Assembly (NCBI GenBank): GCA_019309545.1
Contig: JAFDGA010000001.1
Coordinates: 62,001 to 126,000, forward strand
DNA: 64,000 bases
Source: Deltaproteobacteria bacterium
GTDB taxonomy: Bacteria; Desulfobacterota; Desulfobaccia; Desulfobaccales; Desulfobaccaceae
Reading direction: 5' to 3'
Positions 48,832 through 57,247 of this stretch are shown in pieces; the first letter of the stretch is position 1; each line of letters starts with the position of its first letter. The position numbers and the translations under genes were made by a program. The notes beneath the pieces were generated by a model. The model saw nothing but the letters and a program-made list of their open reading frames with translations, made no database searches and was not told the DNA's origin.

Positions 48832-49605
48832 TCAAGATCGGCCAGGGCATGCCTGTTCAACCCATTGCTGGGCGGTCAGCTGCTGGCGACAGGTTGGACA
48901 TAAGTGCCACAGGGAATCAATTTCCGGAAATTGCTCCGCAAGAAAGGCCATTTTTTGGGGGGCAAAGAACCGACCGCAGCGGGGGCAGGGATGTAGTTCC
49001 ACCTGGGTATGCCAGGTGTGTAGAATCCGCGCATGCCCCCTATCCTCTATGTGGATGGCACCCGTGGGACAGATTTCAGCGCAGGCCCCGCAGCCGAGGC
49101 AAGCCTCGCTGTGCAGTTCAAAGGGGGTGCCGACTTTACGGTTACCCCCCCGCCCCACAAAGCCGATGGCGCAAGCGCCGATGGCCTCGTGGCAGACCCT
49201 CACACAGAGGCCGCACAGCACACATAGTTCCATTTCCCCCTCAGGGGGGGAGACTGGAAAACGGGACTCTCTCACTCCCATAGCCGCGGCCAACTTCTTA
49301 ATCACTTCCGATTGCGAAGCGCGGCTGAGGAGAAATTCCACCGCCAGACGACGGGCGGTAACCGCCTCCGGGGTTTCGGTGTTTACTATCATGCCGTCTT
49401 CGGCGGGATGGACGCAGGCGGCGACCAGTTTCGAAGGCGGGGGGCTAGATAGACTCACCATACATAGCCGGCAGGCCCCATAGGGTGCCAGCCCCTCATG
49501 ATAACAGAGGGTCGGCAAAGCTACGCCCGCGGCGCGCACGGCTTGCAATACCCGGGCGCCCTGCGGGACGGTTACCGGCCGTCCATTTACGGTCAGATGG
49601 ATCAT
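48832..49605 (-). CDS. Multi-cluster iron-sulfur protein of the CO dehydrogenase operon
   Basis: This 257-residue protein has three parts. The N-terminal 2Fe-2S domain (about 1-75) is like that of NuoG/HoxU and formate dehydrogenase accessory subunits, with cysteines C34 (LCYHEG), C45 and C48 (GACRLC) and C64. Two 4Fe-4S sites follow: CVLCGLCVRVCHEAIG and CLGCGACAEICPTGA. The C-terminal end has a zinc-ribbon-like pair of pairs, CPRC and CPTC, which I do not recognise as part of a known family. It lies 29 bases after cooS on the same strand and probably carries electrons between CooS and a NAD(P)- or ferredoxin-linked partner (inference). Confidence 0.8.
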   Translation of the reverse strand: MIHLTVNGRPVTVPQGARVLQAVRAAGVALPTLCYHEGLAPYGACRLCMVSLSSPPPSKLVAACVHPAEDGMIVNTETPEAVTARRLAVEFLLSRASQSEVIKKLAAAMGVRESRFPVSPPEGEMELCVLCGLCVRVCHEAIGACAIGFVGRGGNRKVGTPFELHSEACLGCGACAEICPTGAIHIEDRGHARILHTWHTQVELHPCPRCGRFFAPQKMAFLAEQFPEIDSLWHLCPTCRQQLTAQQWVEQACPGRS

Positions 49606-49634: not shown

Positions 49635-51515
49635 TTAAAGGCCCAAAGCCGTCCGTTTGTCCTCGATATGGCCGATCATCAGTTGGGCCGCCTTAACCGG
49701 ATCCGGCTCTACCGCAAAAGTGGCACCAACTACATCTTTAGCACCGGTGGTCAACAATTCGGTCACCACGGTGCTGCCCAGGACCGGGGGTACGGTACCT
49801 AAAACCGTGTAGATTCCGGAAGATACCACATAGGACCCAATACTGACGGCCTTTTCACTCATCCATTCCGGAGCGGCGCCGGCCACCGGCAGATCACTGA
49901 TATCCACTCCCAAGGCGTTGGCCACCGCGGCGCAAACGGTCAGGATGCGGCTGATGTCCACACAGGAACCCATATGCAATACCGGAGGAATCCCTAAACT
50001 CTGGCATACCGCCTTAAGTCCATCCCCGGCCTGGGCCGCGGCTTCCGGCAACATCAGGCCGACTTTGGCACAGGCGATGGCATTGCAGCCGGTGGTCACT
50101 ACCAGGACATTGTTTTTAATTAGTTCCCGGACCAGGTTGACATGGCCGAAATCGTGCTGAACTTTGGGATTATTGCAGCCCACCACCCCGGCGATACCCT
50201 TAATGGCCCCGGACTTGATTTGTTCCAGGAGCGGCTCGAGGCTGCCCCCCAGGGCCTCCAGGATGGCCTCGGTGCTGAAGCCGACCAGGCATTCCACCTT
50301 ATCGTTCGGGATCACCACCTGGCCAGGTTTACGCCAGCGATAATTTTCCACCGCGATGCGGACGATCTCCTTAGCAATGGCATAGGCCTGTTCTTCATGA
50401 AATTCGATGTGGGTGGCGCCGGGAAACTTGGCTTTGGGAGAAGTGGAGATAAACCTGGTATGGAAGCAGCCGATCAGATTCCCCAAAGCCGGCATAATAC
50501 ACTGGACATCGACGATAATGGCTTCTACTGCGCCGGTGATCACCGCCAGTTCCTGTTGCAGGAAATTACCGACCATAGGGATGCCGTGCCGCATCAGCAC
50601 CTCATTGCCGGTGCAGCACAGGCCGACCACATTAATTCCTTGAGCCCCGAGCTTGGCGGCCAAGCCCAGCATTTCCGCATCACGGCAGGCGGCGACGATC
50701 ATTTCCGACAGGGTCGGTTCATGGCCATGAACAACGATATTGACTTCGTCCGCCTTGAGAACCCCGAGGTTGGCCAGAGACCGGATGGGCTTGGGGGTGC
50801 CGAACAGGACATCCGAGATCTCGGTAGCGATCATCGAACCGCCCCAGCCATCAGCGATCGAGGCTCTAAGTCCCTGCAAGATCAGATTAACCGGGTCATT
50901 GTCCACCCCGATATGGGTGCGGTGCATAATTTCCACGATTTCGCGGTCCACCCCGCGAGGGTCAATCCCCAGTTTCTGCCATAAGCCGACCCGTTTCTGG
51001 GGAGCCCGGCGGCTGAATTGAATCGGGCCTTCCTGTTTGCCGAACTCGGCATAAACCGCCCGGGCTAGATCCAAAGCGATTTCTTCTTTGCCCCGGCCCT
51101 CGGTGGCAATATTGTATTCAGCGGCTAGAGTCCGCAGCTTCTGCTCGTCTCTGATCTCGTATCCGCCCCCCTTGCCCTCGGCGGTGAGCAGCAGGGTGTG
51201 GGCCAGGTCGCGGCCATGATCGGAATGGGCCGCCGCGCCGGCAGCGATCATACGGATCAGGTTGCGGGCCACGATGATGTCGGCGGAAGCCCCGCAAACC
51301 CCTTGCTTGGGCCCGGCATCCTCAAAAGGACTGATGCGACACGGCCCCATATTACAGTTGCGACAACAAACCCCCAGTTCGCCGAAACCACATTCCGGTA
51401 ACATGGCCTCATATCGGTCCCAGGCGGTCTCCAACCCCAATCCTTCAGCCCGTACCAGCATCTGGTGAACACTGGGATCAATGCTTCGCTTTAAGATTTT
51501 GTCACTGGTCGCCAT
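49635..51515 (-). CDS. cooS: Anaerobic carbon monoxide dehydrogenase catalytic subunit
   Basis: This 626-residue Ni-Fe enzyme interconverts CO and CO2. The N-terminal cluster region reads LPECGFGELGVCCRNCNMGPC and then GVCGAS, matching the D- and B-cluster ligands. The C-cluster residues are distributed over the rest, with Cys in GLCCTGNEVL, DVQCIMPAL, GVVGCNNP, TGCNAIACAK and MGSCVDISR. I chose the ATG with AAGGAGGGAG upstream. No acetyl-CoA synthase subunit is in the window, so it is a monofunctional type next to a CooF-like protein. Confidence 0.95.
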   Translation of the reverse strand: MATSDKILKRSIDPSVHQMLVRAEGLGLETAWDRYEAMLPECGFGELGVCCRNCNMGPCRISPFEDAGPKQGVCGASADIIVARNLIRMIAAGAAAHSDHGRDLAHTLLLTAEGKGGGYEIRDEQKLRTLAAEYNIATEGRGKEEIALDLARAVYAEFGKQEGPIQFSRRAPQKRVGLWQKLGIDPRGVDREIVEIMHRTHIGVDNDPVNLILQGLRASIADGWGGSMIATEISDVLFGTPKPIRSLANLGVLKADEVNIVVHGHEPTLSEMIVAACRDAEMLGLAAKLGAQGINVVGLCCTGNEVLMRHGIPMVGNFLQQELAVITGAVEAIIVDVQCIMPALGNLIGCFHTRFISTSPKAKFPGATHIEFHEEQAYAIAKEIVRIAVENYRWRKPGQVVIPNDKVECLVGFSTEAILEALGGSLEPLLEQIKSGAIKGIAGVVGCNNPKVQHDFGHVNLVRELIKNNVLVVTTGCNAIACAKVGLMLPEAAAQAGDGLKAVCQSLGIPPVLHMGSCVDISRILTVCAAVANALGVDISDLPVAGAAPEWMSEKAVSIGSYVVSSGIYTVLGTVPPVLGSTVVTELLTTGAKDVVGATFAVEPDPVKAAQLMIGHIEDKRTALGL

Positions 51516-54858: not shown

Positions 54859-55686
54859 ATGTTTGAAATAGTTGCCCGAGAAGAGATGGCCGAGGGCACG
54901 GTGGTCAGTAATTGGATCCGCGCCCCCAAAATTGCCCAAAAGGCCAAGCCGGGACAGTTCGTGATTTTGCGGGCCAATGAGACTGGCGAGCGCATCCCCC
55001 TGACCATGGCGGATACCGACCCGGAAAAAGGCCTGATCAACATCATCTATCAGATAGTCGGTAAAAGCACCGCCTTGTTTAAGACCCTACAGGTGGGGCA
55101 AGGCTTCCTGGATGTCATCGGTCCCCTGGGTCAGCCCACCCATGTCGAAAAAGTTGGCAAGGTTGTCTGCGTGGGCGGCGGTACCGGCGTGGCCGTGCTG
55201 CACCCCATTACCCGGGGGTTGAAACAGGCCGGGAATCATGTCTTCGCGATCATCGGCGCCCGCACCAAAGACCTGCTCATATTAGAAGACCGCATGCGGA
55301 ATGCCTCCCATGAGCTTTTCGTCTGCACCGACGACGGCTCCTATGGGCATCATGGCTTTGTCACTGACATGCTCAAAAAGGTTTTGGAAGATAATAAAGA
55401 CATTGGCCTGGCAGTCTGTATCGGACCGGTGCCGATGATGAAGTTCTGCTGCAAGATGACCAAGGAATATAATGTCAAAACCCTGGTCAGTCTCAATCCC
55501 ATTATGGTGGACGGGACAGGCATGTGTGGCTGTTGCCGGGTTACGGTCGGCGGCGAACGTAAATTTGCCTGCGTTGACGGGCCGGAATTTGACGGTCACC
55601 AAGTTGATTTTGAGGAACTCACGGCTCGGCTGCAATCTTATCTGGAACAAGAAAAGCAGTCCTACGAGATGTTTAAAGCCAAGTAA
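54859..55686 (+). CDS. nfnA: NfnA-like ferredoxin-NADP+ reductase subunit alpha
   Basis: This 275-residue FAD/2Fe-2S protein is related to NfnA/SudB and dihydroorotate dehydrogenase electron-transfer subunits. The FAD site is near ERIPLTMAD, the nucleotide-binding segment is GGGTGVAVLHPITRGL, and the C-terminal 2Fe-2S cluster reads GMCGCCRVTVGGERKFAC. Together with the next gene it would form an electron-bifurcating transhydrogenase linking NADH, ferredoxin and NADPH. AAGGAGG precedes the ATG. A structured leader lies upstream. Confidence 0.9.
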   Translation: MFEIVAREEMAEGTVVSNWIRAPKIAQKAKPGQFVILRANETGERIPLTMADTDPEKGLINIIYQIVGKSTALFKTLQVGQGFLDVIGPLGQPTHVEKVGKVVCVGGGTGVAVLHPITRGLKQAGNHVFAIIGARTKDLLILEDRMRNASHELFVCTDDGSYGHHGFVTDMLKKVLEDNKDIGLAVCIGPVPMMKFCCKMTKEYNVKTLVSLNPIMVDGTGMCGCCRVTVGGERKFACVDGPEFDGHQVDFEELTARLQSYLEQEKQSYEMFKAK

Positions 55687-55822
55687 GGCCGCCGCCGCTT
55701 CAATCAGCACTAGTTTCGAGTTGGAGTAAAATCGCGGGCTCAAGACCAAGCCCTCCCAACAACGACCCGGAACTGAAAACTCAAAACCCACAACTTTTTG
55801 AATTCCCAGGAGGATGACTATA

Positions 55823-57247
55823 ATGGCGGAAGAAGAAAAACCTAAAAAGGAAAAGAAAGAAAAGATTCCCCGACAAAAGATGCCGGAACAAGACCCCCAG
55901 GTCCGCCGCCGGAATTTTGATGAGGTTCCCCTTGGACTGACCCCGGAACTGGCCCAACTGGAGGCCAGTCGCTGTCTCCAATGCAAGGACCCCCGCTGCG
56001 TCAAAGGCTGTCCGGTAGAGATCGACATTCCCGGATTTGTCAGACTGATTGCCGATGGTGACTTTGTCGGCGCCATTCGCAAACTCTGGGAAAAGAATGC
56101 CCTGCCCGCGGTCTGTGGCCGGGTCTGCCCCCAGGAAATCCAATGCGAGGGCTTGTGTATTCTGGGCAAAAAGGAAGAGCCGGTGGCCATCGGTAATCTG
56201 GAACGGTTTGCCGCGGATTATCAGCGCCTCTATGGAAAACCGGTGCTGCCACCCAAGGCTGACCCCACCGGTAAAAAAGTGGCAGTGGTGGGCGCGGGGC
56301 CGGCGGGGCTAACTGTGGCTGGTGACCTGATCCTCAAGGGCCATGAAGTGACGGTCTATGAGGCGCTACATGCGCCGGGTGGAGTGCTGGTCTATGGCAT
56401 TCCCGAATTCCGGCTTCCCAAAGAGATCGTCGCTTCCGAATGTAATTATCTGGAACGCCTTGGGGTCAAGATTGTTACCAATGCCGTCATCGGCCGGGTC
56501 GAAACCGTGGACGAACTGTTTGAACAAGGCTTCGACGCGGTCTTCCTGGGAGTTGGGGCGGGCCTGCCGATGTTCCTCAATATCCCGGGCGAAAACCTGA
56601 TCGGCATCTATTCCGCCAACGAATATCTCACCCGGGCCAACCTGATGAAGGCTTATGCCTTCCCGGAGTATGATACACCGATCGTGGTGGGCAAAAATGT
56701 CGTGGTCTTCGGGGCGGGCAACGTCGCCATGGACTCGGCCCGGGTAGCTATGCGCCTCGGGGCTGATCGGGTGCGCATCGTCTATCGCCGTTCTCGAGCC
56801 GAGATGCCGGCCCGGGAAGCCGAGATTCATCACGCCGAGGAAGAAGGCATCGAATTCTTCCTGTTAACCGCGCCGACCAAATTTATCGGGGATGATAAAG
56901 GCCGGGTTACCGGGGTGGAATGTCTCAAAATGGAATTGGGTGAACCGGATGCCTCGGGCCGCCGTCGGCCAGTGCCCATCCCGGGGTCCGAATTCCAGCT
57001 CGAGTGTGACCTGGCAGTGATTTCGGTCGGAGCTGGAGCTAATCCCTTGCTTACCAAGACAACGCCGGGTCTGACCCTTAACAAGTGGGGCTATATCGTC
57101 GCTGACCCCAAGACCGGCAAAACCACCAAAAAGGGGGTGTGGGCCGGAGGCGACATCGTTACCGGCTCAGCCACCGTTATTCTGGCCATGGGAGCGGGGC
57201 GGATCGCCGCTAATTCCATTCATGACTATCTCACCTTAGGCTGGTAA
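55823..57247 (+). CDS. nfnB: NfnB-like (GltD-like) oxidoreductase subunit beta
   Basis: This 474-residue protein has a lysine-rich N-terminus, two 4Fe-4S sites (CLQCKDPRCVKGCP and CGRVCPQEIQCEGLC), an FAD motif (GAGPAGLTVAGDL) and an NADPH motif (GAGNVAMDSARVAMRLG). This is the layout of NfnB and glutamate synthase small subunits; the neighbouring NfnA-like gene favours NfnB. I chose the ATG at 55823 because AGGAGG is too close to the one at 55814. A hairpin lies 10 bases past the stop. Confidence 0.9.
   Translation: MAEEEKPKKEKKEKIPRQKMPEQDPQVRRRNFDEVPLGLTPELAQLEASRCLQCKDPRCVKGCPVEIDIPGFVRLIADGDFVGAIRKLWEKNALPAVCGRVCPQEIQCEGLCILGKKEEPVAIGNLERFAADYQRLYGKPVLPPKADPTGKKVAVVGAGPAGLTVAGDLILKGHEVTVYEALHAPGGVLVYGIPEFRLPKEIVASECNYLERLGVKIVTNAVIGRVETVDELFEQGFDAVFLGVGAGLPMFLNIPGENLIGIYSANEYLTRANLMKAYAFPEYDTPIVVGKNVVVFGAGNVAMDSARVAMRLGADRVRIVYRRSRAEMPAREAEIHHAEEEGIEFFLLTAPTKFIGDDKGRVTGVECLKMELGEPDASGRRRPVPIPGSEFQLECDLAVISVGAGANPLLTKTTPGLTLNKWGYIVADPKTGKTTKKGVWAGGDIVTGSATVILAMGAGRIAANSIHDYLTLGW

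Follow-up and report, generated by a model that had tools for sequence, protein, structure and literature searches.

Codh-Bfu enzymes, in which carbon monoxide dehydrogenase (CODH) genes stand together with bfuA, bfuB and bfuC, were proposed in 2022 from four sequences, stated to come from Firmicutes only in the portion of PMC9304861 available to us; they were still uncharacterised at the time of the proposal, and it was suggested that they might permit the use of very low CO. The same portion of that source defines Type 2 BfuA by a 2Fe-2S domain (IPR001041) and a 4Fe-4S ferredoxin domain (IPR017896), describes it as lacking the A3 and A5 clusters and as working with a BfuBC core, allows extra co-encoded subunits to feed in the electrons of a third substrate, and includes IPR017896 in the definition of BfuB. 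A different arrangement, the cooF-cooS-FNOR unit, is known from PMC6344411 and PMC11338639, and NuoE/F/G-type genes appear in the gene network around Wood-Ljungdahl-type CODHs (PMC6344411; excerpts in both cases). The closest solved structure is entry 9mqx, titled as an electron-bifurcating tungstopyranopterin aldehyde oxidoreductase and probably the A. mobile enzyme of the Wor-Bfu type, in which a BfuA of 247 aa (chain A) is deposited with a NuoF-type BfuB (chain B) and electrons come from the aldehyde oxidoreductase.

Here we describe a CODH operon in the window, by which we mean the whole 64,000-nucleotide stretch of Deltaproteobacteria DNA analysed. Open reading frames, Pfam matches and cysteine positions bear out the gene order cooF-cooS-X given in the preliminary description, X being a third gene whose product combines a 2Fe-2S head with two 4Fe-4S sites and a CPRC/CPTC pair (Table 1). 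The genes are separated by 19 bp (cooF/cooS) and 29 bp (cooS/X). Against TIGR01702 CooS reaches 737.8 bits (cut-off 478), and it aligns along its length with solved structures of CO dehydrogenase, 6t7j for example; the ORF tool began its frame at an upstream TTG (51563), and the likely ATG gives the start listed in the table. As in the Codh-Bfu enzymes of PMC9304861 (in the part available), CODH genes are combined with a Type 2 BfuA; unlike them, the window holds BfuA alone, with no bfuB and bfuC clustered with the CODH, and belongs to another phylum.

Table 1. Features of the cooF-cooS-X locus and its surroundings (positions in the window)
Feature	Positions	Strand	Basis
X: NuoG-like / BfuA-type (Type 2) iron-sulphur subunit, 257 aa, ATG start	48832-49605	-	ORF, Pfam, PDB match, alignment
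X, CxxC...CxxC ribbon, residues 205-240, putative zinc	48886-48993	-	Conserved Cys, 9mqx_A alignment
X, dicluster 4Fe-4S ferredoxin-like part, residues 124-184, eight Cys	49054-49236	-	Pfam
X, [2Fe-2S] Fer2_4 head, residues 1-78, Cys 34/45/48/64	49372-49605	-	Pfam PF13510
cooS: anaerobic Ni CO dehydrogenase catalytic subunit, 626 aa from likely ATG	49635-51515	-	TIGR01702
cooF: polyferredoxin-type (HydN/DmsB-like) electron transfer protein, 181 aa	51535-52080	-	ORF and profile searches
nfnA-type and nfnB-type genes	54859-57247	+	PRK06222; gltA TIGR01316; 2.8 kb beyond cooF

The cassette adjoins fhs, and an nfnA-type and an nfnB-type gene follow, the latter scoring 608 bits against TIGR01316 (cut-off 471.75). 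Both genes also lie beyond fhs in genome G002 (L077 and L011); they are absent from the examined stretch of G004 (L078) and are not observable in G001, because that contig stops inside fhs. The genes trxA and trxB adjoin the cassette in all four loci that carry X (about 214 bp away in the window; TrxA identity 87-94%), and they were considered as functional partners of X and set aside, no evidence linking them to it. A scan of the locus for promoters and terminators gave nothing above chance.

The head of X matches Fer2_4 with a Pfam E value of 8.9e-19, and the Fer4_7 dicluster is found on residues 128-183 (E 3.8e-11), with cysteines at 128, 131, 134 and 138 and at 169, 172, 175 and 179. The sixteen cysteines assigned to the clusters and the ribbon, the four of the ribbon included, show no variation across the 25 rows of a family alignment, and two further cysteines (145 and 253) lie outside the named sites; given this invariance and the purifying selection on X described below, the pattern is not due to chance. 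A sequence search of the PDB returned 9mqx chain A as the best match (E 1.8e-46), aligned with residues 2-245 of the 257 of X, ribbon included. The chain belongs to the same length class and arranges its 2Fe-2S site, two 4Fe-4S sites and C-terminal CxxC...CxxC pair in the order seen in X. A model of X built from an alignment of 25 window and locus sequences (mean pLDDT 90, against 39 from the single sequence) retrieved the same chain at rank 1 in Foldseek (E 6.5e-24) and was superposed on it by VIA-align with Z 24.8 and rmsd 4.0 over 241 residues, the runner-up entry reaching Z 21.2. Fer2_4 and this structural match uphold the earlier reading of the head as NuoG/HoxU-like, and the 2Fe-2S plus 4Fe-4S ferredoxin-like fold is indeed shared with the N-terminal module of HoxU, NuoG and HydA. 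An identification of X as HoxU itself was rejected at 118.9 bits against NF005745, for which the NCBI curated cut-off is 333. X is a short NuoG-like "BfuA" subunit, as found in HydABC/Bfu-type enzymes, and so belongs to a known family.

Within that family both PF13510 and the Fer4 families score above the Pfam cut-off in X. Residues 79-122, where we take the A3 site (the His-Cys3 cluster of NuoG-type proteins) to fall, contain neither Cys nor His; past Cys 179 the only cysteines are those of the ribbon (four) and Cys 253, so that A5 is likewise absent, a call that assumes that the ribbon holds no cluster. Lacking A3 and A5, and with cooF-cooS directly upstream as extra subunits, X fits the Type 2 BfuA of PMC9304861, as defined in the part of that paper available.

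The two knuckles of the C-terminal ribbon are CPRC at 207-210 and CPTC at 236-239, and the spaced pattern is present in 121 of 129 homologues (see below). Among the eight that do not match, one (L170) is shortened by the match itself and seven have at least one replaced cysteine; because these cysteines can be replaced, a role in structure fits better than one in redox chemistry. Two BfuA relatives, L138 and L142, have lost one cysteine from each knuckle and kept the rest of the protein. The ribbon is probably a zinc-binding structural element common to short BfuA proteins. It differs from the Zn site of T. maritima HydABC, since the latter was assigned in HydB and not in HydA (PMC9499530) and the assignment has itself been questioned (PMC8880783; excerpts of both). 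Family-wide presence and the alignment with 9mqx_A rule out a novel CODH-specific domain, and the idea that the ribbon is without precedent has to be given up.

The census of homologues covered a sample of 395 genomes from the phylum, in addition to the PDB and one genome-contig scan (two loci). At E <= 1e-52, a cut-off that leaves out most longer NuoG/HydA/FdhA-type relatives, 128 matches were found in 105 of these genomes and, together with the match in G002, a genome of the same genus, give 129 homologues, further matches in relatives outside the sample being excluded. Neighbouring genes were identified by tblastn with a small set of reference proteins, so that weak Kor-like and NfnB-like neighbours are also counted. 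A BfuB gene lies within 3.5 kb on the same strand in 116 of the 129, KorA/KorB-like (2-oxoacid oxidoreductase) genes lie within 6.5 kb in 79, and cooS lies within 6 kb in ten, one of them also among the 79. The BfuA family is therefore mostly unlinked to cooS. The general tie between this domain order and cooS that had been envisaged does not hold, and the counts for cooS and for the ribbon, which the preliminary description had itself put forward as tests, oppose both that tie and a novel ribbon. No BfuB is found nearby in 13 homologues: four are X and its orthologues, seven start less than 2 kb from the upstream-side contig end, and two (L179 and L195) do not. The commonest setting of short BfuA in the sample is the Por/Kor-type korCAB-bfuCBA operon (e.g. 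L013, 4986-11241).

The three close orthologues of X are 79-85% identical to it and all, like X, lie directly behind cooS. Seven genomes represent the taxonomic family; X occurs in four, each time directly behind a CooS of the window type, and the other three have no CooS above 63% identity. At all four orthologous loci, the 3.5 kb around X contain no bfuB and the 6 kb around it no bfuC; the 64 kb window gave no match to either BfuB or BfuC, and its contig (C1) none to BfuB. Further observations concern the relatives. In G005 (L239) and G003 (L240) the site beside fhs is occupied by a different solo CooS, about 60% identical, which replaces cooF-cooS-X. In G002 cooS is read in two frames (478 + 114 aa; L077 6015-7830, L011 6157-7972), with residues 455-490 unmatched. 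In G004, which belongs to another genus (L078, 5904-10619), CooF and CooS are 92-93% identical to those of the window and the adjoining TrxB is 69% identical; an exchange of the cassette between the two genera is possible.

The cooF-cooS-FNOR unit has the same first two genes and the same third slot, but its FNOR is a pyridine-nucleotide flavoprotein (PF07992) unrelated to X, which has no Pyr_redox domain in Pfam and so is not a third gene of the CODH/FNOR kind. This is the gene order found with the nearest other CooS (75% identical; genomes G211 and G233, family f40), and the G211 FNOR has matches of just 27-32% (E <= 1e-15) in G000, G001, G002 and G004. In a CooS tree of 42 rows drawn from many more matches, with the split G002 CooS left out, two f40 CooS form the sister group of a set made up of the window CooS and two orthologues (SH-aLRT 96), and the CooS of five further BfuA-containing operons of the same phylum (L079-L083) form a separate clade (SH-aLRT 100). 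X thus stands in the slot where the nearest CooS relatives have FNOR, and so probably fulfils an equivalent function in a different way. In the BfuA tree (129 rows) X and its orthologues group with BfuA linked to CODH, NfnB and MPT in a set of 21 rows (SH-aLRT 91), outside which the Por/Kor-operon BfuA of the same genome is placed; the position of X in this tree is uncertain because of long branches, and the CooS label changes at least twice by strongly supported branches. Most simply, CODH-BfuA pairings would have arisen more than once on the CooS tree and the pairing in the window lineage would be a separate event, with a direction of exchange that we infer; common ancestry of the pairings, with losses, is possible.

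The five operons L079-L083 have the one-strand order cooF-cooS-bfuC-bfuB-bfuA (NuoE-F-G-like). They share CooF, CooS and BfuA on one strand with the window, but differ from it in the presence of NuoE- and NuoF-type genes and in their CooS clade. Their BfuB stops short of the C-terminal ferredoxin domain (that of L082 has no Fer4 in Pfam), and bifurcation is therefore not implied; these enzymes may be plain CO:NAD oxidoreductases. X as a remnant of a complete operon of this type is disfavoured, as the CooS tree separates them. Two other loci show further combinations. L084 (G364, contig C40, 178-9384) carries bfuB-bfuA-cooS-acsB and CODH/ACS-looking genes in one run, so that a module of the bifurcation type, its BfuB having the C-terminal ferredoxin domain, adjoins a CODH/ACS operon. 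L087 (G233, contig C249, 421-6508) carries bfuC, a 1040-aa BfuB-NfnB/GltD-like fusion and bfuA, together with a CooF-like gene and a pair of small CNNC-motif genes that match nothing in Pfam.

Purifying selection acts on X: by the counting method, the six pairs formed by four species give dN/dS values of 0.18-0.22, so that X evolves faster than CooS (0.05-0.06) and CooF (0.03-0.07; three pairs each). Over the columns at least 90% conserved in 100 other homologues, a comparison set from which 25 rows without an assigned neighbour were excluded, X keeps 36 of 41, including all 15 conserved cysteines; the X clade keeps 36-37, against a median of 40 for the 100, and the BfuB-linked L093 and L126 keep as many as X. 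Both measures therefore indicate that X is constrained, yet freer than its neighbours.

With moderate confidence, we propose that X is the BfuA-type wire of a CODH complex, connecting CooS-CooF to an NAD-binding core encoded elsewhere. CO would be oxidised at CooS, CooF would relay the electrons, and within X they would move between its clusters, 4Fe-4S to 2Fe-2S, before reaching an FMN/NAD core; on this reading X would bind CooS/CooF and a NuoF-type subunit. The earlier proposal of an adaptor between CooS and an NAD-linked or bifurcating partner thus remains the best reading in the light of the Bfu-type relatives and 9mqx, but the partner is not supplied locally: where the 9mqx BfuA has BfuB and an aldehyde oxidoreductase, X has CooS-CooF and no bfuB or bfuC nearby. 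Recapture of leaked CO would be a reasonable role, considering the separate CODH/ACS in the same genome (L228) and the suggestion of very-low-CO use in the available part of PMC9304861.

The X operon has no bfuB or bfuC, so such a core has to be encoded at another locus. In the draft genome (96 contigs, 99% complete) there are genes for three NuoF-type proteins, on contigs C24, C23 and C12. That on C24 belongs to a korCAB-bfuCBA operon with a NuoE-type BfuC and an oxidoreductase of the pyruvate/2-ketoisovalerate type (TIGR02175 above cut-off), and it is the only full-length BfuB match in the genome that reaches the C-terminal ferredoxin domain. Those on C23 and C12 are fused NuoE-NuoF proteins without the C-terminal ferredoxin part, matching bifurcating BfuB over residues 23-560 (47%) and 28-557 (44%) only; on C23 (L014) the adjoining gene starts NuoG-like and continues formate dehydrogenase-like to a stop codon, and on C12 (L015) a complex I nuo cluster with NuoG is present, as read by eye. 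Of the six BfuB matches in G004, a genome on a single contig, one reaches residue 613, and it is that of the Por/Kor-type operon; in G002 two matches reach the C-terminal ferredoxin domain, so that the Por/Kor-type core is not the sole candidate there. Hence, should X work with a bifurcating core, that core can only be the C24 one, with the sole full-length BfuB of the draft, and the core for X would most likely come from the korCAB-bfuCBA operon. More tentatively, a single NAD/ferredoxin-bifurcating BfuBC core may serve, within one cell, both the Por/Kor-operon BfuA (2-oxoacids) and X (CO) as interchangeable adaptors, the CODH having swapped its FNOR for a plug-in.

The absence of bfuB (3.5 kb) and bfuC (6 kb) around X in all four orthologous loci could also mean that X works without an NAD core, as a ferredoxin-like relay from CooF to soluble ferredoxin or to another enzyme such as NfnAB, whose genes lie beyond fhs in the window and in G002. 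We regard this as rather unlikely, because 116 of 129 relatives adjoin a NuoF-type subunit and X keeps most of the conserved family columns, and because the nfnAB genes are divergently transcribed behind fhs and missing from the examined stretch of G004; moreover, in other CODHs CooF needs no additional protein to serve ferredoxin. Docking of X on the fused NuoE-NuoF of the C23 formate dehydrogenase-like locus or of the C12 complex I, which would deliver CO electrons to the NAD or quinone pool with no bifurcation, draws on proteins that the genome does encode, but each of these has a NuoG-type neighbour of its own and matches bifurcating BfuB only in part, which makes such an arrangement improbable. 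That X is a decaying leftover of a lost CODH-Bfu operon would agree with the absence of its partner genes and with a dN/dS above that of CooS and CooF, yet the ratio is still low, the frame is open, the sixteen cysteines are kept in all four species, and the CooS tree ties the operon to the FNOR type and not to the complete CODH-Bfu type; we consider it highly improbable.

What is unusual in X is thus the presence of a BfuA in the FNOR slot without its usual NADH-binding partner genes, the ribbon being ordinary for the family. CODH-BfuA pairings are now seen in a phylum other than the Firmicutes named in the available text of PMC9304861, and the three-gene cooF-cooS-X operon provides a simple case for asking whether a BfuA adaptor borrows a distant core. 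If it does, surveys that require clustered BfuABC genes would overlook members of the family.
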